From Simmondsia chinensis (Eukaryota > Streptophyta > Magnoliopsida > Caryophyllales > Simmondsiaceae), in contig JAGTTD010000019.1 in the NCBI GenBank assembly GCA_018398585.1, positions 248,001 through 312,000 of the forward strand: DNA of 64,000 nt, in the 5' to 3' direction. The position numbers and the translations under genes are program-made. This document shows, piece by piece, positions 5,661 through 63,329 of the stretch. Positions within the stretch are counted from its first letter, which is position 1. The number at the start of each line of letters is the position of its first letter. Under the pieces are notes generated by a model. It was not told where the DNA came from. It saw nothing but the letters and a program-made list of their open reading frames with translations, and ran no database searches.

Positions 5661-5810
5661 CCAACCAAAACAATAGGCAGAAAAGGATACCAACAGGCCC
5701 TTACCTAACATAAATTAGCCAAGCCAACATCAACTGCCTGGCAAGAACCAGGCGCTATCCATTACGTCGCTCTCTCGCCACCTCCTTTTCTCCCCATCCC
5801 CATACAAAAA

Positions 5811-5965
5811 CATTGACCCAGTGTTTCGAGGACTCTCACATATACAGGGTCTTAGGAGGTAAGGATGTACATAGCTTTACCCCTTCAGAGTGCTACCCTA
5901 AAGGAAGGCTGTTTACGAAGATCCCCAACCTAAGGACTCGAAACCATCAGCTGGAGCTTCGCAGT
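5811..5965 (-). mobile_element. Au-type SINE copy, possibly tRNA-headed
   Basis: Antisense Au body: CCCAGTG tail, CAGGGTCTTAGGAGG, GGATGTACATAGC and AGGCTGTTTACGAAG. Unlike the 5S-headed copies, the body is followed by GGACTCGAAACC, close to the reverse complement of a tRNA B box (GGTTCGANTCC) with one extra base, and then by CAGTTGCAG, weakly like the A-box region of Au SINEs. I see no target-site duplication. The tRNA head is inferred. Confidence 0.5.
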
Positions 5966-19480: not shown

Positions 19481-20392
19481 TTTTTTTTTGGCCAAAAGAC
19501 AAGCGCAAATTCAATATATATCAAAATTCAGTACAAAACAGTATCAAAATATGCAAAAATAAAAGCCAAAAGGCCCCTATACACTCAATCTAATAGAGAG
19601 CAAACCAAAAAGAAATTCATAAAAACTAAATCACAAAATTGACCCGATACCAAACTAATTTCTGAATTTCTCTTATCACCCAACTTTTACATCCGTCTAA
19701 CTCCTTGAAAATTTTTCCATTCCTGGTTGTCCAAATCATGTAAACTGTTGCAGCAAAACATGCCCGTTTAATATGTGACTCAAACAGCCGACTTCGAATC
19801 TTCTTTCCGAACCAGTCAAAACATTGCTGGAGTGTTGTGAAAAAACATATATCGCTCCATTGACAAATGCCAAGCCACACATCTTTTGACCACACACAAT
19901 CAAAAAATAAATGCTCGACAGATTCATTAGCCTGCTTACACATAGCACAACGACTAGCTAGCTGTACTCCTCGCCTTTGTAATCTATCATCTGTCAACAA
20001 CCCCCCCGATATGGCTAACCACAAAATAAAACTGTGCTTGGGAAAAGAAAACTTACCCCAAACCGTGCGTTCCCAGTGAGTTTGCTCTCGGTGAGTTCGC
20101 AGTAGGTGATAAGCTCTGCTACATTTGAACTGATCACCCTGAACGCAGCTAAGTAATTTCTGCTGGGCATCCTGAACCGAAGCAGACTGAGCAAGCAAAC
20201 TATCCCGACATATTATCAACATCCTCCAAAAAGAAGAATCATCTGTCGCTGCACTCAAATGCCAAAACTCGCCCTTTTTCATATAGATCTCATGAACCCA
20301 TCGGGCCCACAACGAATCCTTCTTATCCTGAATGTACCAGAGAGTACGCATTATTTGAGCAAGGTTCCAGCTTTCGATTTGTTTTATACCAA
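19481..20392 (-). mobile_element. 5'-truncated L1-type LINE with zf-RVT domain
   Basis: The minus-strand frame encodes the C-terminal end of an L1-type plant LINE: SLWARWVHEIYMKKGEFW, a long link, WLAISGGLLTDDRLQRRG, and the reverse-transcriptase zinc-binding motif CAMCKQANESVEHLFFDC (C-x2-C-x8-H-x4-C), then an IWTTRNGKIF stretch. The stop lies near 19626. The 3' UTR ends TTTTGGCCAAAAAAAAA, a poly-A end at about 19481. The 5' part with endonuclease and reverse transcriptase is missing, which is usual for L1 insertions. It interrupts the ALMT pseudogene. No clear target-site duplication was found. Confidence 0.8.
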
Positions 20393-20486
20393 GGCGTAGA
20401 AGGAGCAACGGTATTGCAAGAGCTCGGAAAAGGGAAGTTGGCGTAGAAGGAGCAACGGTATTGCGAGAGCTCGGAAAAGGGTCCAA
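20393..20486. repeat. 47-bp tandem duplication at the L1-ALMT junction
   Basis: Two adjacent copies, 20393-20439 and 20440-20486, begin GGCGTAGAAGGAGCAACGG, with about one mismatch. They sit exactly at the 5' truncation point of the L1 fragment. The period is not a multiple of three, so the duplication adds a frame shift to the ALMT tail. Confidence 0.8.
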
Positions 20487-21045
20487 GATACGGAGAAATT
20501 AAGCTCTAGAAAACGGCTTCTGCAGAATGTGCATAGAGCGGCTGAAGAGCTGCAAATGCAGATAGACCAAAAATCTTACCTCCTAGTGAACGCATCCATT
20601 TGGGAATCAAATATCCAACCGAAGGAATTCACAGATCCCAATGACTGTCATGATACCCATCATCAAAACGAGCACAAACAACCCTCCCTTGAAGGAAACT
20701 CTGGTCCTGTGTCAGGGAGGGACCAAGATCCACAAAATTCAAACACAATTGTTGATATAATACCAACTCCCAAACGGGTTCGTCAAAGGATGTTTTAGGA
20801 GGCAAATATCATGGCCTTTGCGGGTGCCAATAGAGGGAAAAGCAATGTCGTAGGGAGAGAGAAGAATCAATGAGAGCGCCAGTTCCTCCTTGTTCGCTAC
20901 TTTTGCTTCTCTGCTGAAGGAATTAGTCGCGAGACTTCAGAATGCTGTAGATTCATTCAAAGAGCTAAGCAAGGAGGCGAATTTTAAAGAAACTATAGAG
21001 CCATTAGGCTCCACAATATTCAGAATTTTAGATAGTGACTCATAG

Positions 21046-31193: not shown

Positions 31194-31400
31194 AATAAGC
31201 AACATTTCCGATGCCTCAAAAGCTCCCTCCTAAGTAATGTTTGGGGGGTGGATATAAGCAGTCTTCTCTTTTCAGGGTGCTACCTTGAAGAGAGGTTGTT
31301 TCAGAGAACCCCTAACCTGAGGGGTGCAACACGAGGACTTTCTAGGGGATCACCCATCTTGGTACTGCTCTCGCCCAAGCACGTTTAAGTTCGGAGTTCT
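31194..31400 (-). mobile_element. 5S rRNA-headed Au-type SINE
   Basis: Read on the minus strand: the 5S-derived head starts ACATTAGAACTCCG and includes box A (TTAAACGTGCTTGGGCGAGA), then GGTGATCCCC and CCTCGTGTTGCACCCCTC, the exact 3' end of plant 5S rRNA. It runs directly into AGGTTAGGGGTTCTCTGAAA and the Au body. Flanks show TGTGGAAGATTTA and TGTTGAAGATTTA (31181-31193, 31403-31415), a probable target-site duplication with one mismatch. Confidence 0.8.
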
Positions 31401-31744
31401 AATGTTGAAGATTTAGAATTAATAAATTATTTTTGAAATTTTATGAATAAGTTGTAGAATAAGATTAGTTTTGCATTTTTTTTTTCTTTTTAGTTATAAA
31501 ATATATTTTTCATCTCCTATTTAAGCTATGAAAAAATGTAAAAATATATTTTCATCAAATAATCACGAGCCTTAGTAACTACTAGAGTTTCTTTCATAGT
31601 GGTGTTAAAAAGTGAACCCAAATGTAGTCTAAATGAGCAAAACTTGATATAACGGCTAAAACTTCCTAATATGCGACATAATAATGCTCATTAGGCAAAA
31701 ATGATAATCCTTACCATAATTAAAAAAAAAAAGTATCAAATTGA

Positions 31745-32169: not shown

Positions 32170-32520
32170 TGCGGGTGAGTTGACGTGGATGACCCTCTTA
32201 CTCTAGAGGCTCAAGCCATTCGGAATGCGTGTTTCTTTGCCCTTTCAGCTAGATGGAATCGTGTCATTATCGAATCTGATTGTAAAATGGTTATTGATGC
32301 ACTTAACGGGTGTTCTTTTGTCCCTTGGTCCATTAAGGCGATTATATTTGACTTTTTGAACCTTAAAAGCAAAATTGTATACATGTATTTTAAGTGGGTT
32401 CCTAGAATGTGTAATAGAGTAGTCGATGTAGGAACAAGACTCCATTTTGTTAACAGATTAACCATGAGTGGCGGATTTTCCCACCACCGTAACTTTCTAA
32501 TGTGCTTTTTACAGATGTAG
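32170..32520 (+). pseudogene. LINE-derived RNase H domain fragment
   Basis: Open frame with AQAIRNACFFALSARWNR, VIIESDCKMVIDALNG and a later WVPRMCNRVVDVG block. This matches the RNase H-like domain (RVT_3 type) in plant L1 LINEs and related host proteins: E in the first helix region, the ESD motif, and N-x3-D near the end. There is no reverse transcriptase upstream, and the frame runs off into non-domain sequence. It is best read as a retrotransposon fragment. Confidence 0.7.
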
Positions 32521-32704: not shown

Positions 32705-32905
32705 GCGACAAACCCAGTGCCCCAAGGGCTCTCGCCTAAACAGGGTCTTAGGGGACGGATGTACGCAGCCTTCCCCCTTCAGGATATTATCCCTGAAGAG
32801 AGGTTGTTTCCGAGTGCCCCCAATCTGAAGGTGAGAACTTTCCAGGAGGCCACCCATCTTGGTACTGCTCTTACCCAAGTACGTTTAACTTCGGAATTCT
32901 AATGT
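32705..32905 (-). mobile_element. 5S rRNA-headed Au-type SINE
   Basis: Antisense order: CCCAGTGCCCCAAGGGCTC tail, GGATGTACGCAGCC, GAGGTTGTTTCCGAGTGCCC, then AGGAGGCCACCCATCTTGG and the 5S box A in antisense (CCCAAGTACGTTTAACTTCG), ending TTCTAATGT. It shares with 63103-63329 the GAG(G/A)ACTT junction, in which about nine bases of the 5S 3' end (GTGTTGCAT) are missing. No clear target-site duplication. Confidence 0.8.
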
Positions 32906-33360
32906 GATACAAATATTAAAGACTGTTTAAAAAAAAGGGTAAAAAGACTAATTTAAATAAATATATAAATAGGAGGGATCATCGGGTTAAGTGACCCAAC
33001 TACTATTATTTAATTAATTTTTTATTATTAATAGACAGCCAACAACTATTATTAGAGGGCAGGTTTGGTGGGAGTCCTTCCTAAAGTATCTCCATATACC
33101 AAACACTACGCTTTAAAAAAGTAAGACAAAAGAAAGCAAACGGCAGCGTACTACGATAACAAACTACTTAATTTAATTAATTTATAATATTACAATAAAA
33201 ATCATTAAATTATGAAAATCATTTTAAATTAGTTTTAATTTATTTGCTTTATTAGTCTATAATATTTGTAAGTTTATTTATACTAATTTGTTATTTTTAT
33301 TTTCATTCAAAATTATCTAAATTTTTGTATATTTACTCAAATTACTCTATTATTTTTTAT

Positions 33361-33549
33361 GATAAAAGGAGGTACCAACACGCCGTCATCAGATCCCGTT
33401 AGAACTTCGAAGTTAAGCGTGCTTGGGTGGGCACTCAAAAGCAGCCTCTCTTCAGAGGTCACACCCTGAAGGAGGAAGGCTGCGTATATCCGCTCCCCCC
33501 AGACCCTGTTAAAGCGGAAGCTCCTAGGGCACTAGGTATGTTGCTTTTA
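33361..33549 (+). mobile_element. 5S rRNA-headed Au-type SINE, internally deleted
   Basis: Sense orientation: GGTACCAACACGCCGTCATC, then AGATCCCGTTAGAACTTCG, AAGTTAAGCGTGCTTGGG (5S box A). It jumps to CACTCAAAAGCAGCCTCTC and the Au body, so the 5S box C region is deleted. The tail ends GGGCACTAGGTATGTTGC. Flanks CTCTATTATTTTTTAT (33345-33360) and CTGTATTATTTTTTAT (33550-33565) form a 16-bp target-site duplication with one mismatch. Confidence 0.8.
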
Positions 33550-35995: not shown

Positions 35996-38900
35996 ATGCA
36001 GAATACTGGGAGTCTTTCAAACAGTCCTTCTTTGAAGTTAACACCGCAACAATCTGTACGCCGATTGAGCTTGTGTTCTCAAATTTCTACTGGGCAGCAG
36101 TGCTCCCCAGTCGTCTTCCCAGAAAAACGTGGTAAAGTGAAAGCATCACGACGCGGTGTAGTCAATTCTAGCAGTGATGACCCTCAAAAAGTAAAGAGGG
36201 AAGAACATAGGATTGACATAGGGGACGAGCAGTCTGATTTATTGGGATATGAAGTGCTTTCAGCAAAGCTTGTTTTGGATAAGAGGAAGAAAAACAAAAG
36301 CACCGATGTACATAGTTCTACAGAAACTACAAAACAAGAAGCTGTTGATGCTAAACTTACAAGCAAAGCACTGGTTTGGGGATCAAATATGTTATATTTG
36401 GAAGACGTGATTTCCGTAAGATTCCTTGACCTTGCTGCTATTGCTCTACCTAGAATTATTAAGGCACATGGACTCTCAACATCCTCCTGTACTAATCTTG
36501 CAGGTATCGTACAATGTTGGTCTTAGACATTTCACCATACACTCCTATCCAATAAAGAAGCGGTGCTTTATGAAACCTCAAAGAAGTCGGAAGGATTTTC
36601 GCTTTCTAGCTTCTAATCCTGATGAAGCTCTTCAATGGGTTAATGGCTTTGCAGACCAGCAATGTTTTGTGAACTGCATGCCACATCCATTGGTATCATC
36701 AAAGAAACAGTCGATGGAATTTGTTTCTAGTGATTTTCTTCTTGAAGCAAATGTAAAATGTAAAACTTCACCTAAAATGTTAGTGATACTAAATCCGCGG
36801 TCAGGACGTGGTCGATCAAGCAAAGTATTCCATGGGATGGTGGAACCAATATTCAAGGTATGTTGATATTCTGGTTTCTTTCGCATGTTTGACTGCCTTG
36901 TTCAACTATCCTAAATGCGCGTTCGTTTTGTCCACAATAAGACATTCTATTTCTGGACAAATGCTAACTGGTTCTCAGTTATCAAAATGCGGTACTAGAA
37001 TGGATTGCATTAGGGCCATTTAGATAATTCTGATAATGTTGATATGCTGGGGGAAAACATGAATTACAGATTCAAACAACTCTTCATGAAAACTATAGCA
37101 ACTGGTGGAACAAATAAATTGAACAGAAAAATTTCCTTCTAAATAGCTCTAATGGAGACCAAGCCCAGAAAGGAACTGAAAGGCCGAAAGTCTCTGGACA
37201 CCGCACATTACATCCTGGGATATGATTTTGATGATTCATCCTTTTGTTTGATATTAGCTGCGACTATGGTTTATCATTGCTTTCAATCTTGTTGAAATTC
37301 TGGATTAGTTATAGAATCTATAAAATGCCAAACTAGATCAATCGTTAGCTCTTGGAGCCTATGCAACCCTGAAAAAGAAGTCTTACTGTTTGCTCATCGT
37401 GGTCGTAGATGGGGCGATTTGCTTCATTTCAATGCCTTCTTACTGCAAATTATTCTTTTTCTGTAACTTTCTGGAAGCAACTGGCAGAAATGAAAACTGC
37501 TTGCGATGCTGTGCTTTTCCAACTGGCCCTACCTAACAAAAGTGGGGGATGTTTCTCTCTTTTCTTAAGATGCATGCTCATAGTGTAATGAATTAGAATC
37601 TGCATCAGAGAAGAATGTATTGCATTTAATTGTTACGCTTTACAACAACAACAATTCCAATGACTCAAGGGCTCCCACATAATACCCGTCCTGGGGGGAG
37701 GGGGATGTACGCAGCCTTACCTCTTCAAGGTGCTACCCTAAAGGGAGGTTGTGTCCGGGGACCCCCAACTTGAGAGGCATAAAAGCATAAACCATCTAAG
37801 CTTAAAAGCGTAAAAGCACAAAAGCATAAAACTATAAAAATAACGGCACAGAGCAAGCATATAGAAGGTATAAAGCGGCAATCAACAATATAATAGCTCA
37901 CAGCCATATCAAGTAAATCCAACAGGTAAACATATAAGCCTAGGGGCACTAGTGTTATCTAAATTATGCTTCTATATTTTAATCTGGTACATCGGCTATC
38001 CCTATACTAGTCCTCCACTGAGCTCTATTTAAGGCCATCTCCTCATGTAGGTTTAGGTGGGTGAGGTCGTGTCTGATCGTCTCCATTCGTCTCTTCTTTT
38101 GCCTGCCTCTCCCTCTTGTCCCGAGCGTAGTATGGAGTTGTTCGCATCTTCTAATAGGGGAAGTGGTCGGTCTCCTTCAAAGAAGAGTTAAGACCTCAAC
38201 ATTTAAAATATAAATTTGTGAGTGAAGCATGGATCTCCTTTTTTGCTCCCACTTTTGATCGCATTTCCTTACTTTTGATTTGGTCACTTACTCGTTGAGA
38301 TACAATACTTGCTTCCAGTCATGCTTGACTAGATAGAATTGTGTGGAGGGTACGCATAGGTGTGCCCGATATAGTGGAATACATCCAAGCTAGTACTAGG
38401 GCCTCTAAGCTTATATGTATGCGAGCTTGATTGTATGCGACTTTGGCCATATGTTGGTGCATTTTGCTCTGTCGCGTTAATGCCTATTACTGTTGTATTC
38501 TTTCTATAGGATTACTCTGTGACATGTTCCTATGCTCGTATGCTTAGATGCTTGTAGGCTTATATACTTCTATGCTTTTATGCCTTATGCTTCTCAGGTT
38601 AGAGGTTCTCGGACACAGTCTCCCCTTAGGGTAACACCTTGAGGGGTAAGGCTGCTTAAATCCCACCCCTCCCAGACACCACATATGCGGGAGCCCTAGA
38701 GGCACTGGTTTGTTGTTGTTTTTGGATTTGTTCTGTAGAAACCATGATGGCAGGGTTACCTAGATGAGTGCCGTGAGTAGTTGAATCAGACAAATGCGCC
38801 GAGTATGTGATTGACATATGGTTGCAAACTGTGACAGCTTGCTGGGTTTAAGTTGGAGGTCGTGAAAACAACATCAGCTGGTCATGCTAGAAAGCTCGCA

Positions 38901-41900
38901 TCTACTGTTGACTTCAGCACATGCCCTGATGGTACTCACAAATGCTTTCTTTGATTAATATTATGGTGCTAGGCTAGTAGCTAATAGAATCAAATGAAGG
39001 TTATGTAAAATGATGACATATACGTAATTTGAGCTAGCCATTACATAACACAATCACTGCAATGTCATATACGTAATGTTCTCAACAGTCCGCTGTTGTG
39101 ATACTGCTCTGCCAACTGCAACGCAAATGGCAGTTGGATTCAATGGTCACTATCTAATTTCTAAGGTCATGGAGATACATTGTTTCACATTGGTACTCTT
39201 TACTTTTTTTCCCCCCCTCATATTTTGTTTATTTTAAAGATAATCTCTGTGATTCTTCTTTGCAGGAATAGTTTGCGTTGGAGGTGATGGAATTGTAAAC
39301 GAGGTCTGTCTTCCATTCATTACCCTTGATCAAATTCACTCAGCTCTGACTTAAGAATTTCAGTGTACATTGAGAATAATGCTGCTGCTGCTGTTGTTGT
39401 TGTTGTTGTGGTGATTGAGAATGCTGTGCAAAGTTTTAATAGTTACTCAAAAAGAATCTTTGAAACTAGTAAGGTCTGGGTAATTTTCTGAGATCCATCA
39501 TATTTGCTACAGTGTGGTTTTTATAAATATTGCTTTATGTCTTTAAAAGAAGTAGAATATACTTCTTGGTTACTCAACTACTGACTCCAGTTAGATATCT
39601 TGATTTAAATCCTGTAGGTTCTAAATGGTCTCCTAAGTAGGGATAACCAGAAGGAAGCTATATCTATTCCAATTGGAGTGATTCCTGCTGGTTCTGATAA
39701 CTCCCTTGTTTGGACTGTTCTTGGAGTTAGGGATCCAATTTCTGCTGCAATAGCTATTGTGAAGGTACCTCATATCACACTCCCTCTGAATTTTTCAGCT
39801 TCTGGCCAAGGATGTTTCTTAAGTTAATTTATAGCACGCAAAGTGCTTATGTTATAATTTGTGAAAGTTATGGGCTTACCTGCTTATATTAGCTTATAAT
39901 TTTTTCTTGGATGTTTATTGAACTTTGTTGACTATAATGCAGTCTACGAGTCCTTGTAGTTCAACATGGGCGAATTCAGCTTTAATCTTCAAATATTTAT
40001 GCAATGTTGAACTTAGTTTTAAAGTTTCAGGTTGAGTTTCTCTGGATCTGCTTGAATATTGTCAAGTTATTGATTACATTACTGTTCTGCGCTTCAACTA
40101 GTAATTTTTCATCATTAATGTTGAACTAATTTGTGAAATAGAATATTTATGTAATTGACCCCCAATGATTTTAGGATAGATGTAAATTAATATTACATAT
40201 ATTTTTATCTGTGTAAAAAATTAAATTGCCCCGAAACATTTGTCAAAATTTTATCAGTTAATCTCTTTACCTTCATTTCTATGTCTATTGTAAGGATAGA
40301 TTTTTAAAGCTATTATAAATCATGCGTAATTGTATTATGTAATTGGCCAAAATTGCAATGGGTCATGATCACATAATACTATTAGCATTCAAAATATTGT
40401 ATATTTATCAAACTTTTAGACTCTTTTTAAAAAATTAGAAGTATAGTGTATATGATACTATTGTATGTTATTTATCAAAATAATATTATTATATTTTGTA
40501 AAAAAATATTACCTGGCGCAATTAATGAACATATCTTGAAAAAGACGTACTTATAGATATGAGATGTGTTGAAGATTATACAATTTGACAAATAACATGT
40601 AATAACATTATGTTTATTATACTGAGTTATTTATTCGGAAGTGTTATTGCAGTCACTATTAAAATATGGCTATAGTGAATAAATTTTCTAGACCTGCCAC
40701 TACCTCTGATAAATGCACTTGAACAAGTGCCCTGTATAACTCATTAATAAAACCTTTTGTCGCTGAGGGGGATTTATTAATGAGAAAATTATGAAATAAA
40801 GACTTGAAAACTTTTTTCCTTCTAGTAAGAAGAACTACCTTAGTGATACTGATATGATCTCTATCCTTACTGATTCAAGGAAGGTGCCTGTTCTATAGTT
40901 TGAACTGAAGTCAGGTTTTTCTTTCTGAAGTTGTTGCATTTTCCCCCTGTTACTCATGCATGGCTTTGTCACTTACAATGCGTTTTTTTCTTCTGGGTTT
41001 CAGGGAGGGCTTACAGCTACAGATGTTTTTGCGGTTGAGTGGATTCACACTGGGATTGTTCACTTTGGAATGACCGTCTCATACTTCGGTTTTGTTAGTG
41101 ATGGTAATCTGCCATGCTTTTTATAACTCCTAGGTGGTTTATTTGTTATATAAATTATTAACATTGGAAAGGGATTTTTAACAAGTTGGAGGCGTTTTTA
41201 GAATCCTCGTATTTTTCCTCCCCCATCCTTCTACTGGCAAAATTTATTTGAATGTTATGTCTTAATAGACGGTTCTGCTATTTCACAGTGGATAGTGTGC
41301 GTGATAATTCTCCTTACTTTTGGCGGTGCAGTGCGGTGCCAGTTTTACCCTTGTTATTGCGCTAAATCACTTGGTTTTCTTCCGTGGAAGTGACTGATAA
41401 TTGTTCTTTATGTTCGTTGCAGTGCTTGAGCTTTCTGAGAAATATCAGAAGCGCTTTGGTCCTCTGCGTTACTTTGTTGCCGGTGTCCTCAAATTTTTAT
41501 GCTTGCCGAAGTACAGCTTTGAAGTGGAATACCTTCCAGCATTGACAGAGGCACTCGAGGCTAGAAAAACGACAGGTGACCGGGAAGTAATTGATATGTC
41601 CGATCTATACACTGATGTTATGAGGCAATCCAACACGGACCGCCTACCTAGAGCATCGAGTTTGTCAAGTATTGATTCTATAATGAGCCCTTCTCGAATG
41701 TCTGGGGTGGAATTCGATACCACTGGCAGTAGCACACATGCCAGCACCGAGCCATCTGAATATGTGCGTGCTCTGGATCCAAAGTCGAAACGTCTATCTT
41801 CCGGAAGGAGAGCTGACGCGGAAGAGCCTGAAGTACTTCACCCTCAACTTCCACTGTCAACCACTCCCAATTGGCCAAGGACTAGGTCTAGGTCTAGGAC

Positions 41901-42977
41901 CGACAGGGGATGGACCGGACTGACGACCACCCATGATGCAACTCGAGCCTCGTGGGGGCCAAACGATAAAGAGGATATCTCTTCGACAATATCTGATCCG
42001 GGTCCAATCTGGGATTCTGAGCCAAAGTGGGACACCGAGCCCAACTGGAATGAGGAAAATCGCATCGAACTACCGGGTCCACCACCGGCTGAGGATGATA
42101 CTGACAAAAGGGAGGAACTCGTGCCGAGATTTGATGATAAATGGGTGTCTAAGAAGGGACAATTTCTCGGTGTTCTCGTCTGCAACCATTCTTGTAAAAC
42201 TGTCCAAAGTTTGAGCTCTCAGGTTGTGGCACCAAAAGCCGAGCCTGATGACAATGCGTTAGATCTATTGTTGGTTCATGGGAGTGGGCGGCTGAGGTTG
42301 TTGAGATTTTTTTTGCTCTTGCAGTTTGGTCGGCACCTATCCTTGCCATATGTTGAGTATGTTAAGGTATGCGTTCAGTTTTGGTATTTTTCCTGCCATG
42401 TTTTATTCTCCCTTATTTGTATAGACGACGTAAAAATAAGAAATATCTTGCATGAATTATCTTCTATTCTCTTGTTAGTGTTGATCCAACAATTTCATAT
42501 GCAAGCATGGAATCGAATAAAGGATGTTGCATGACAAATTTCTTGTAGCACATAACGAGATTGGCCGTTGCACAATGATACCATTGTTATGGCCTCCGAA
42601 AAGCATGTGTATTTTACACATGTATTTGTATGTTAAAGCTATTAAAGCGGCATATAATTTAATTATAAAACTTGAAAAGCACACTATGGTCACTATGACT
42701 CATTACATAATATTTGAAAGTCTTCAAAACCCAGTTTTTTCTTACACTGTAATGGTGACCGCGAACCAAGATTTGATTCCATGAACGTGAATAATAATAA
42801 TAAGCAAAACTTGGTTTTACTATGCAGGTGAAGTCGGTGAAGATCAAGCCTGGGAAGCACTCACACAATGGATGTGGAATCGATGGTGAGCTCTTCCAAG
42901 TACATGGGCAAGTCATCACTTCCTTGCTTCCTGAACAATGCCGCCTCATCGGTCGACCACCCAGCCGCCAGATTTAA
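35996..42977 (+). CDS. LCBK1: Sphingoid long-chain base kinase 1
   Basis: Eight coding exons: 35996-36415, 36504-36857, 38838-38931, 39266-39303, 39618-39764, 41004-41103, 41423-42366 and 42828-42977, all in frame, giving 748 residues (Arabidopsis LCBK1 is about 760). A disordered Ser-rich N-terminus is followed by a PH-like segment (RHFTIHSYPIKKRCF, DEALQWVNGFADQQC). Next is the diacylglycerol-kinase-type catalytic domain: nucleotide loop VILNPRSGRGRSS (about residue 232), SAGHARKLA, and the catalytic GGDGIVNEVLNGL (about 294). A long Trp-, Asp- and Ser-rich linker follows, and a C-terminal CGIDGELF motif (about 718) belongs to the fold. The enzyme phosphorylates C1 of free sphingoid bases such as phytosphingosine, in lipid signalling. 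The ATG lies just after an acceptor. Intron 2 holds two inverted LINE fragments. Confidence 0.92.
37642..38175 (-). mobile_element. RTE-type LINE 3' fragment with Au-type end
   Basis: Minus strand: a coding end LGTRGRGRQKKRRMETIRH followed by LNLHEEMALNRAQWRTSI and a stop at 37979-37981. This is the typical C-terminus after reverse transcriptase in RTE-like LINEs (RGRP-KK-W then W-R-I). A 3' UTR rich in TTTTATGC follows, and then the same end as the SINEs: AAGTTGGGGGTCCCCGG, AAGGCTGCGTACATCC, GAGCCCTTGAGTCATTGG and (GTT)n. It lies in LCBK1 intron 2. Confidence 0.75.
38385..38722 (+). mobile_element. RTE-type LINE 3' UTR fragment with Au-type end
   Basis: Plus strand: CTAGTACTAGGGCCTCTAAG and CTTATATGTATG match the 3' UTR of the neighbouring minus-strand LINE. 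Then TATGCTTTTATGCC, CTCAGGTTAGAGGTTCTCGG, AAGGCTGCTTAAATCC, GGGAGCCCTAGAGGCACTGG and a TTGTTGTTG tail. Forms an inverted pair with 37642-38175. Confidence 0.7.
39379..39412 (+). repeat. (CTG)n(TTG)n microsatellite in LCBK1 intron
   Basis: GCTGCTGCTGCTG followed by TTGTTGTTGTTGTTG. Simple repeat, intronic. Confidence 0.8.
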
Positions 42978-51100: not shown

Positions 51101-54100
51101 ATTAGTTGTGTTAAGAATTCCACATGTGACAACAACAATGCCTAAGAAGATCCCGCCATGGTAGGGCCGAGGGGATGAACGCAGCCTTACCCCTACAGAG
51201 TGCTACCTTGAAGGGAGGTTGTTTTCTAGAGGGAGAAGAGATCAACAAACAAGCATATTGAGCTACTCCACTTATTGCCAATTGGTTTTAGGATGGAACT
51301 TCACTTAGGCTAATACATGGATCTCATTAGGACCGATGAAAAATTCACTAGTTGCAATTGAGTCTTTCCTTGTTTTGAAAGGAATGTAGAGAGAATAACT
51401 TACCGGGCGGTCCAAGGATGGAATCGTCTGGTTTGTCTTTTGATACTTGCAGAAGATTTAGAATCCAGAAGTTAAAAACATTTCCTGTCAAATTCAGTGA
51501 ATTGGTTATAATCCAAACCAAAAGCCAAGTTCCTAAGAGACAAGCTCATTGAATCAGCAACCCGAGATATTAGAGACCCAAGATAATAGAGGCAGGGGTC
51601 GGCCTGTACTGTATATCGTTATTCATAATTGGAGAAATAATGACCTAGTAGGGTCAAATGTATGTATGTTTCCCACTTTTATGGAGTCTGGTTTAGACCC
51701 CAAGCAATTCATGTAGTTGCTTGGGACCTCCAATTTATGAAGGGCCCCTTTTAAAAATTAATTATATTATAAGTTTATTTCTACCGCATATCACCATTCA
51801 TAATTGGAGAAATAACAAACTATGTATAATAAATTATAGTGTATATGTACAAATATAATACATGACCCACATATTAATTGTTATTATAATATAAAGTGGA
51901 TTAGTTGACATGAGCTTAAGCTGACTTATACACATCCATTATGAAAAACAGGCCTGCAAACCAAAACTAGCTTTAGGCCCCAAAAATCTTAGGACAAGTG
52001 TGTTGTAGAGAGACTATTTTCGAGACTTGCACTACCCGGTGTATAAAAAGGCACACCTTGGGCAAGGCGAGGTGCAGCTCCCTCGCCTCACAGGCCTTGG
52101 GCAAGGCAACTTTGACAAGGCATGCCTCGCGCGGGGTCTGGGGGGTGGATATACGCAGCCTTTTCAGGGGGTAACCCTGCCGAGAGGCTGCTTCCAAGGA
52201 CCCCTAACCTTATACGGTTGGCAACACAAGGACTTCCCAGGAGGTCACCCATCCTAGTACTACTCTCGCTCAGGCACATTTAACTTCGGAGTTCTAATAG
52301 GATCCGATACCTTAGTGCCTTGTAAATAAACCCTAACATATTTATCTTATATGATATAACATAATATCCTTTTTTTTTTTCTTTAATACTTAGTAGCATA
52401 TTAGTAGTTAATAGTTATACATAATTGATTTTGATATCTTTATTTTGATATGAAAGAATTGGAAAAGAATGATATTGATGCCATGTATTTTTTGTGGATT
52501 TTAGGATGCCTTACAATTTTTGTAAAAAAAGCTTACGTTGATATATATTACAGCGCGTTTTGATGAATATTAATATCTTTTAGCGGTATTTTTCTTAGAC
52601 ACTATATGTATTTTTAATTAGAGTTGTTATATTGCATAACTAATTAATTTTATAGCTTATGTTCATAAAATATTTTATGAATATAGAATATGAATGCAAA
52701 TTACAAAACTATGCGCCTCACTGTGCTAAGGCGCGCGCCTGCGCCTTCGCCTTTCTCCTTTCGCCTTGCACCTAGGCACCAGGACCCCCTATTGGCTCAA
52801 TGCGCCTTGAGCCCTTTTATACATTGGAACTACCGACATCCACGAGAAAATGAAACATCTTAGGGGTTGCACTGAGAGTCCAAGCATAATATGGGAGTAA
52901 AAAGTGAAAAATTTACCAAAATGTTAAACTGGTATCGGAGTTGTATTTACCTGACTCCTTTTTGTTGGAAACAGCAGTTGTCTGTGCTCTGTCAATCTTC
53001 TCTTTCTCAGGGACGGAGGGTTCTTCAGGTGGCAATGGTGACACGTCTTCTGTAGTCACAACATGTTCGATTTCTGCAGAATTTGATGTCAAAGAAGTGT
53101 AGCCAATCAATTATCCTACGCCTAAATCAATATTAGAGGTGCAAATGAGCCAAGACTGTGAGAAGGGTTGTTATTCAGTTGAAAAGGCACGTCTCATTTT
53201 TAGCTCGAGCAAAACCGACCAAGATCCTTCAGCTAAATGAGTTCAGCCCAAGTCCAAAAGCTTAAGCTTGGTGGCTTGTAAGCCTAAACAACAAACCTGA
53301 ATGAGCCAATCTCAAGCTAAACTATAAGACTTAATGGATCCCATCGAGCAAAGTTTGAGCCTAGGTGAACCGAGCCTGAGCCTGAGCCTAATTGATCTCA
53401 AACAAGCATAGATCAAGCTTAATGAGTTTGAACATTTAAGCTTAGCTCAGAGCTTGCAAAGTTGGGTTCAAGCTCAACGTAGCTTAGTCAAGCTTGAGAT
53501 CAAAGTTACCAAGCATAACAAGCTTTGGACGAAGCCAAGCTGGATTTGAGCAAAATGTTACAGAGCACATAACATTTACGCTGCAACGATACCTGTGCCA
53601 CCCCCTCTCTTCCCATCAGTGTGTGTCGGTCCAACATTCGTGTCCACTTCCTCGGTCAACAATGGCACTTGAGCTGGAGGAGCGATATCTCTTGAAGGAA
53701 TATTGGATGAAACACCTGCAGTTCGGCACATTTTGAAGTGAGAGGGCTCTTACACCTGACACGTGAACTTAGAGTAACTCACTAATCTTATATGTTGATA
53801 TCTTCTTCTTAGAACCCTGATGTGATTTCTTATTGAACTCGCATGTGGAGTTCTTAACGCATCGTGCATGTCTACTGGGAGAAAAAAACTCTAGAAGGTT
53901 GTATTGACAGGGTCATTTTCTTTTTTTCGACCCCCTTAATTTCCAACTATTTCCCAATTTTTCATCTTTCATAGAAAAACTTAGAAAATTATAGATAAAG
54001 AAACTAAGCAAATTTTTGCAAACTGAAAGTGGCCTTTTATCTTTCGTTTTTCTGAAGAGAGGAAGATTCAGGGTGGTGCAGTAGTGTAACCAGATGGAGA

Positions 54101-61290: not shown

Positions 61291-61320
61291 GTATAATATA
61301 TAATTATCATAAGCATAGAT

Positions 61321-61542
61321 AGGGTTCATTTACGGGGCACTAAAGCACAGGAACCCATTAGAACTCCGAAGTTAAGCGTGCTTAGGCGAGAGGAAGTCCT
61401 CGTGTTGTCAACCCTATAAGATTAGGAGTCTTTGAAAACAATATCTCGACAAGATTACACCTTGAAAGGATAATGTTGCACACATCCACCTCTAGACCCC
61501 GCTTAGGAATGAGCTCTTGAGGCACTAAATTTATTATTTTTG
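61321..61542 (+). mobile_element. 5S rRNA-headed Au-type SINE with perfect 16-bp TSD
   Basis: 222-bp element between exact repeats TATCATAAGCATAGAT (61305-61320 and 61543-61558). Head: GGGGCACTAAAGCACAGG, AACCCATTAGAACTCCGAAG, TTAAGCGTGCTTAGGCGAGA (box A and intermediate element), then a deletion of about 25 bp over box C, and GGAAGTCCTCGTGTTGTC. Body: TAAGATTAGGAGTCTTTG, then a diverged Au part, and GAGCTCTTGAGGCACTAAAT. The head covers 5S from near its first base, so the chimera moved as one unit. Confidence 0.9.
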
Positions 61543-61807
61543 TATCATAAGCATAGATCTGAACCAACCCCAATTCTATTCTATCTATCAAGATTTTTTT
61601 ATTAATTAATATTATTTTGAGTTTTAAATTTTAAATAGAGAATAGAATTTTTGGATTTTATAATAGGGAGGCCCAATGAGTGGGGCCTGCTGAAACGATA
61701 TTTTGACGATACGAAAGCAGATCCACACACACTGGGTACAACGTGGATCACGTGGCCCATTTATTTATCCAACCTGCCAATTTTATTTTGAATTAAATAA
61801 TTAAATT

Positions 61808-62370
61808 AAATACACAACAACAACAATAACAACAAGCCCAGTGCCTGCAAGGGCTTCCGCAAAAGCGGGTCTGGGGAGAGTAGATGTACACAGCTTTCCC
61901 CTTTCAGGGGGCAACCCTGAAGAAAGGCTATTTCCGAGGACCCCCAATCTGAGAAGCCTGAGAGCTGATCCGCAGCATAGAGCATGAGAACATGAGTAAA
62001 GCAAAGCACACGTCAAGCAAAACAACAAACTCAAAGCAAGCCAGAACACGCAGAAATCAAAGAAATCAAGGGAATCAAAGAAATCAAAGGAAATCAAATG
62101 ATAGGTAGGCACGTAGGAGTTCATGAGAGCAAATACACAACCTAAGTGAGCTAGGAGGAAATTAAGGGCTAGCACTAGTAAGCTAGATTACCTTACTCTC
62201 ACTATAGCATCTATAACCCCTATACAAGCCCTCAATTGGGCCCTATTTAAGCCATTTCTTCTCAGAGGTCTTGTTGAATCGCCTCCAGCCATCTCTTCTT
62301 TGGCATGCCTCTTCCTCTCCCTCCTAGTGTAGTAAGGGGTTGTTCGCATATCCTTACTGGAGCATTGTCA
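61808..62370 (-). mobile_element. RTE-type LINE 3' fragment with Au-type end
   Basis: Minus strand: GRGRGMPKKRWLEAIQQDL, the C-terminal RTE motif, then a deletion of about 30 bp and a degraded frame. A 3' UTR follows with TTACTAGTGCTAGCCC, homologous to the LINE at 37642-38175. The last part is CTCAGATTGGGGGTCCTCGG, GAAAGCTGTGTACATC, GACCCGCTTTTGCGG, AGCCCTTGCAGGCACTGGG and (TTG)n, the same 3' end as the SINEs. Confidence 0.8.
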
Positions 62371-63102: not shown

Positions 63103-63329
63103 AAAGGAAGGAGGAACATACCCAGTGGCTCAAGGGCTCCCGCCTACGCAAGGTCTGGGGGGGCGGATGTACGCAGCCTTCTCCATTCAGGGTGTTAACC
63201 TGAAGAGAGACTGTTTCCCAGTGCCCCCAACCTGAGGGTGAGGACTTCCCAGGAGGTCACCCATCCTGGTACTGCTCTCGCCTAAGTACGCTTAACTTCG
63301 GAGTTCTAATGGGATCCGGTAACGGCGTG
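63103..63329 (-). mobile_element. 5S rRNA-headed Au-type SINE, near full length, 17-bp TSD
   Basis: 227-bp element flanked by TTACCTTTGTAAATTAA (63086-63102) and TTACCTATGTAAATTAA (63330-63346), one mismatch. On the minus strand: ACACGCCGTTACCGGATCCC, AAGTTAAGCGTACTTAGGCG (box A), GGATGGGTGACCTCCTGGGA (box C, intact), AAGTCCTCACCCTCAGGTTG, then the Au body and a tail ending near CCACTGGGTATGTTCC. The best-preserved head in the window; the 5S internal promoter elements appear complete. Confidence 0.9.

Follow-up and report, generated by a model that had tools for sequence, protein, structure and literature searches.

A probable 5S rRNA-headed SINE family sharing its 3′ end with an RTE-like LINE in Simmondsia chinensis

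The window (the whole 64-kb stretch of S. chinensis DNA analyzed here) contains an element, copy A, that lies between two perfect copies of a 16-nt word.

61305..61320, forward strand: left target-site duplication of copy A, TATCATAAGCATAGAT
61321..61542, forward strand: copy A, older type, with a 5S head (about 61321–61414, box C deleted) and a LINE-tail body (about 61420–61542)
61543..61558, forward strand: right target-site duplication of copy A, 16/16 identical to the left copy TATCATAAGCATAGAT

The preliminary description had placed a 5S head and a second module inside an exact 16-bp duplication, and both copies of the 16-mer are found exactly there. Within the window, this 16-mer has only these two occurrences, and the longest word shared by Markov-simulated flanks (2000 pairs) is 11, versus 16 around copy A. 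Apart from the target duplication, no terminal repeats were found in copy A. The Rfam 5S_rRNA model (RF00001) matches positions 61318–61419 with E 0.00033 over the window as a whole; the score, 37.8 bits, falls slightly short of the 38-bit cut-off. The first ~94 nt of copy A correspond to positions 1–120 of the model with an internal gap. The 5S origin of the head, proposed earlier, holds in both the Rfam match and the alignment to host 5S genes, but its description as box A with flanking sequence does not: the head is 5S from end to end, with an internal gap of 26 nt. In the alignment with the sister copies B and C, the gap is a 26-nt deletion in copy A that removes box C, and its breakpoints are its own among the 40 best genome matches.

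Six copies with a 5S head and a body (A–F) are present in the window. Besides copy A, these are:

52131..52334, reverse strand: copy B, full-length 5S head and body, older type, 87% identical to the older consensus, aberrant 3′ end
63103..63329, reverse strand: copy C, young type, 95.9% identical to the young consensus, duplication TTAATTTACATAGGTAA / TTAATTTACAAAGGTAA (16/17)
31194..31400, reverse strand: copy D, 5′-truncated head and body, duplication TAAATCTTC[A/C]ACATT (14/15)
32708..32908, reverse strand: copy E, 5′-truncated head and body
33361..33546, forward strand: copy F, head and body with an internal deletion of ~54 nt, duplication TTACT[C/G]TATTATTTTTTAT (18/19)

Target duplications of 15–19 bp flank four of the six (A 16/16, C 16/17, D 14/15, F 18/19); for B and E none was found. 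The value of 16/17 for copy C applies to the chosen boundaries, other boundaries giving scores of 10 and 9. Rfam 5S matches with E up to 1 occur in five of the six, D being the exception, and two sister copies exceed the Rfam cut-off (63.2 and 53.3 bits). On the 3′ side of the body of copy B (52000–52131, reverse strand) there is a GC-rich stretch, gaggcgaggga... cctcgccttgccc, unlike the family tails observed, which may reflect either fusion at the 3′ end or a nested insertion. In copies D and E (at 31404 and 32908), box C reads AAGATGGGTG, as in three host 5S genes; the consensus has AGGATGGGTG.

Copies A and C served as queries against the host assembly, which consists of 35 contigs totalling 831 Mb. 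For copy A, the best 40 of 3472 candidates were kept and, for copy C, the best 40 of 6949; each set includes its query and is made of best matches, not of a random sample. With a joined unit defined as at least 50 aligned nt of head and at least 60 aligned nt of body in one alignment, head and body are joined in 39/40 loci of the copy A set and in 40/40 of the copy C set, or 79/80 together. With the copy A query, 32/40 loci begin within the first six bases. With the copy C query, the remaining 39 loci are 93%–95% identical to copy C, and 36 of them start at one base. Target duplications (called at a score of at least 10) enclose head and body in 23/40 and 31/40 loci, respectively (54/80 in total), and were not found in 17/40 and 9/40. 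Their lengths, as scored over the 80 loci, are 10–27 bp. Mismatched pairs, with upstream and downstream flanks taken from different copies, give duplication calls in 29/1000 (copy A set) and 13/1000 (copy C set) cases.

These counts agree with what had been proposed from the window, a family of plant SINEs with a 5S head that insert as single units: both parts are joined in 79/80 loci and enclosed by duplications in 54/80. The genome search suggested there, for full-length copies with duplications and a consensus, yields common 5S–body junctions, so that the two parts are not confined to separate insertions and the junction is not unique to the window. The elements have the characters of SINEs, being short, noncoding, and dispersed, with consensus lengths of 240–257 bp and TPRT-type duplications. 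In 150 kb of other flanking sequence, eight 5S heads were found, seven of them joined to a body. All seven come from the 84 kb beside SINE matches; the 66 kb next to LINE matches contain none, which indicates an uneven density. In viral and prokaryote contigs, neither the junction nor plant 5S gave a match, and likewise none was obtained for host protein. Protein matches suggest a eudicot host: ranked by E-value, Sarracenia and then Nepenthes (47% identity) come first for one protein, and Amaranthus (62%) for another.

The copies fall into two types. The older type (A and B) has a consensus of 257 bp, built from 13 copies, with a median divergence of 10.3% and a (TTG)n end. The young type (C) has a consensus of 240 bp from 24 copies, with a median divergence of 2.9%, and ends in TATGTTCC followed by T runs. 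Copies D, E, and F align to the young consensus, with only C close to it. The two consensuses are 87.6% identical over 218 nt spanning the junction, and TACCAGG is present in both. Runs of four T are absent from the older consensus; the young consensus contains a single run of six T, in the tail, that could act as a pol III stop. Since the young tail is made of TATGTTCC and T runs without (TTG)n, the partner of this type may be another LINE lineage. Some young-type tails (L033, L034, L036, L043) differ in how often TATGTTCC or GTTCC is repeated, a pattern that looks like copying of the terminal unit on insertion.

Compared with a tandem 5S gene of the host, the older head is 94.2% identical over 104 nt and the young head 96.3% over 80 nt, so that, with the match to RF00001, the head is 5S-derived like that of SINE3-type elements (94%–96% over 80–104 nt). 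A tRNA-derived head with A and B boxes, as in Au, is not what is found, the head being 5S by both Rfam and host alignment. Of the host's 47 top-scoring 5S matches, 46 are on contig C8, mostly in two tandem arrays, and one is on C29. The arrays on C8 lie at 4.69 Mb and 6.41 Mb; the spacing is ~435 nt in one and ~421 nt, or double, in the other. All three host 5S genes that were fetched contain CCCATTAG; at that site, the plant 5S oligos and primers given in the literature passages have CCCATCAG. The T of CCCATTAG is present also in the SINE heads, in 35 of the 36 older loci with the site found (in four it was not found) and in 39/40 young loci. In a literature word search, CCCATCAGAACTCC is present in 11 papers and the T form in none. 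As a SINE-specific mark, CCCATTAG was rejected because it is also present in the host 5S genes; it is instead a mark of the host lineage. With this T common to SINE heads and host genes, the head agrees with a 5S of host-lineage type.

Other positions differ. In place of the TACTAAG and CTCTTGGG of the host 5S genes, the two SINE consensuses read TACCAGG and CTCCTGGG, which suggests that the capture of 5S predates some changes in the host genes. TACCAGG is present in 39/40 young loci and in 19 of the 24 older loci with the site found (16 are without the site); window copy B and the other 5/24 older loci have T instead. The promoter boxes are present in both consensuses. The core of box C, AGGATGGGTG, is intact in 32 of the 40 young loci but in 11 of the 40 older ones, and box A in 12/40 older loci, the boxes being decayed in most older copies. 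Internal head deletions of at least 6 nt, mostly over box C, occur in 22 of the 40 loci found with copy A (L001, L009–L028, L059–L077), a list that may be enriched for box C losses, copy A itself being without box C. One pair of breakpoints is common to L025 and L070, and all others are private.

The body occurs in the window also outside the six copies:

61817..62354, reverse strand: LINE 3′ end G, with a C-terminal ORF remnant containing a frame break, 3′UTR, shared body, and (TTG)n tail
38329..38724, forward strand: LINE 3′ end H, with a short stretch like an ORF end (weak, E 0.24), 3′UTR, shared body, and TTG tail
37642..38176, reverse strand: LINE 3′ end I, with a 65-aa C-terminal ORF remnant, 3′UTR, shared body, and (TTG)n tail
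5804..5931, reverse strand: body K, without a 5S head and with a tRNA-like B box just upstream

The LINE ends H and I are paired in inverted orientation (37640–38735), a few kilobases before an ORF (41401–42534) with a match to the lipid-kinase family YegS_C, which we read as a putative sphingosine/ceramide-kinase-like gene. For the 65-aa remnant of I no protein relatives were found, and for a 46-aa part of it no Pfam family. A second LINE type has left remnants at 19626–20498 (reverse strand) and 32179–32520 (forward strand) with zf-RVT and RNase H-like RVT_3 domains; in our reading it would be L1-type.

A genome search with the ORF remnant of I gave 13859 candidates, of which 150 were scored. 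Longer genomic frames contain RVT_1 in two loci (E 8.9e-35 and 5.8e-36), as in non-LTR reverse transcriptases, with R2 and LINE-1 as the nearest solved structures. Exo_endo_phos_2, a candidate endonuclease domain of apurinic type, is seen in one locus at 20.7 bits, under its cut-off of 27.4. The tails were compared in the best 30 of the 150 scored loci (I included, not a random sample). A body match with a score of at least 51 lies within 900 nt of the ORF match in 30/30, one of them reaching the edge of the searched range. With a score of at least 56 and within 600 nt of the ORF end, the count is 28/30, the SINE thus having its 3′ end in common with a LINE of the same genome. The maximum score is 22 in shuffled sequence and 19.5 in upstream sequence. 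An earlier control that included the reverse strand had a maximum of 131.5, probably because the locus of I in the window (L088) holds the inverted copy H. Per block of 10 nt, SINE–LINE identity is 12%–43% up to consensus position 120, 67% at 121–130, and 69%–94% after that (14 of the 21 high-scoring LINE loci aligned). This sharp rise near position 125 indicates that the 5S end and the LINE homology join at a single seam. Judged by its sequence, the body comes from an abundant LINE, of which it forms the 3′ end; the 3′ module, described earlier as Au-type, is here traced to that LINE.

The motifs of this LINE we take to be RTE-like. Together with the (TTG)n tail, they would put the partner in the RTE clade, a putative placement by tail and motifs. 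TTG repeats are present in the tail in 27/30 LINE loci, and the plant RTE families treated in the part of PMC3747384 at hand end in (TTG)n or (TTGATG)n (7/7).

LINE and SINE copies alike retain a hairpin in the body, with 92.1% of cells paired (reached in 6/500 shuffles) versus 28%–48% when the pairing is slid. Four pairs are changed on both sides (16/500 shuffles), and the covariation score is 0.242 (5/500); the count of pair types is not unusual (102/500). RNA structure is supported for this hairpin only, as against whole-element folds, which for copies A and C are no better than shuffles (z 0.08 and –0.65).

We consider copy A, with a probability of about 0.88, to be a member of a high-copy plant SINE family in which a 5S head is joined to the terminal ~130 nt of an RTE-like LINE. 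Transcription would depend on an internal RNA polymerase III promoter contributed by the head. Through the LINE-derived 3′ end, which has the conserved hairpin and in older copies also (TTG)n, the LINE reverse transcriptase, acting in trans, would be able to copy the SINE RNA into nicked DNA. Such insertion would leave the duplications observed around the whole unit (10–27 bp as scored). The family probably arose by a jump of the LINE enzyme from LINE RNA to 5S rRNA, which joined the 3′ end of 5S to the LINE tail. To its being the first plant 5S-headed SINE family, formed by template switching from an RTE-type LINE onto host 5S rRNA, we would give even odds.

The body is presumably similar to that of the Au SINE and the Angio-SINE superfamily, including the 3′ GCGTACATCC...CAGACCC region, and Au is tRNA-headed. 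A tRNA-headed, Au-type SINE could then have inserted beside an older 5S relic, the two parts being unrelated insertions; this presumed likeness to known plant SINE 3′ ends and the B box of body K are in line with it. We regard it as practically negligible, with 79/80 loci joined and both parts within duplications in 54/80: the recurrent junction inside target duplications refutes separate insertions of 5S and body. Further, among 116 body matches, drawn from SINE and LINE loci so that the proportions are not genomic, 49 have a 5S head, 38 a LINE ORF, 14 are truncated, 14 are other, and one (K) has a B box. When neither 5S head nor LINE ORF is present and the start is intact, a tRNA-like B box is found upstream in 1/15 (K alone), compared with 25/2320 in shuffled upstream sequence; loose A-box scans gave many chance matches. 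With the B box seen in K alone among the 116, tRNA-headed relatives were rejected as the main source of the body. Cassandra, a plant TRIM with 5S in its LTRs, duplicates 5 bp of its target. Like copy A, it has a 5S promoter region within a plant retrotransposon, and it is a known dispersed one (PMC10853983 and PMC10886601, as far as their passages go), yet solo LTRs or fragments of Cassandra have next to no probability here. It is an LTR element, whereas copy A has no terminal repeats besides the target duplication; the duplications are long (10–27 bp, where the literature passages put Ajax and plant Helenus TRIMs at 5 bp), and the 3′ half of the element matches a LINE end. The Cassandra LTR was rejected on the terminal repeats and the duplication length.

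There remain readings that differ in the number of origins. LINE enzymes make template-switch chimeras, and 5S–LINE chimeras could have formed repeatedly and independently instead of as one self-propagating lineage. Private head deletions, common in the older set, and the absence of the SINE-specific TACCAGG from copy B and 5/24 older copies would suit such repeated formation. It is nevertheless very improbable, given TACCAGG (TACTAAG in the host) in 39/40 young and 19/24 older copies with the site, the first base shared by 36/39 young matches, and the 93%–95% identity of all 39 to copy C. That the older and young types stem from two separate 5S captures, on related LINE tails, is doubtful to a lesser degree. 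The older type retains the 3′ end of 5S while the young one stops ~12–14 nt short of it, the first ~24 nt of the young type are unrelated, and the tails differ; against this stand TACCAGG in both consensuses and their 87.6% identity across the junction. A single family, with 5S head and LINE tail moving together, is the reading we prefer.

BovB belongs to the RTE clade. The mammalian Ped-1 (springhare) has, as described, the same architecture as the plant family, with a 5S rRNA promoter and a BovB LINE tail (PMC3747384, Table 1, seen in part). The SINE of tobacco, TS, and the potato LINE RTE-1_STu have in common ~100 nt of their 3′ ends, both with TTG repeats (same source), like the SINE–LINE pair here; TS, by its description, has a tRNA head, versus 5S here. 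SINE3 and other 5S-derived SINEs (zebrafish SINE3, lepidopteran HaSE3, Aspergillus) likewise combine a 5S head carrying internal pol III boxes with a noncoding body, but those named in the passages have animal or fungal hosts, and here the host is a plant and the head is that of the host lineage. Au differs from the present family in its head, tRNA versus 5S. The Angio-SINE superfamily of Seibt et al. 2020 reportedly has a 37-bp Angio-domain near the 3′ end.

In the parts of the reviews at hand, plant SINEs are derived from tRNAs (PMC9033089), or nearly all are (PMC10741241), and the gain of genic promoters by SINEs is cited for animals (2024 Cassandra paper, PMC10853983). In 2013, three SINE/LINE 3′-end pairs were listed in flowering plants, none for Au (PMC3747384, in part). 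Among the keyword matches listed, none is a plant 5S-headed SINE, and one may be described in Repbase, SINEBase, or Seibt et al. 2020. Passages of PMC11490119, PMC5787218, PMC5974128, PMC6544950, and PMC11508114 were also drawn on.

A dispersed plant family of 5S-headed SINEs would break the rule of tRNA origin for plant SINEs. The combination of 5S promoter and LINE tail is known in animals and, in the literature passages at hand, is not described in plants. Such elements would probably be overlooked by software that searches for tRNA A and B boxes. With the SINE found together with the LINE that shares its tail, the SINE/LINE pairing is directly testable. If true, a plant SINE body of the Au/Angio type would gain its missing LINE partner, and the family would be the kind of 5S-headed donor from whose insertion the Cassandra 5S promoter has been proposed to stem (PMC10886601, in the passage available).
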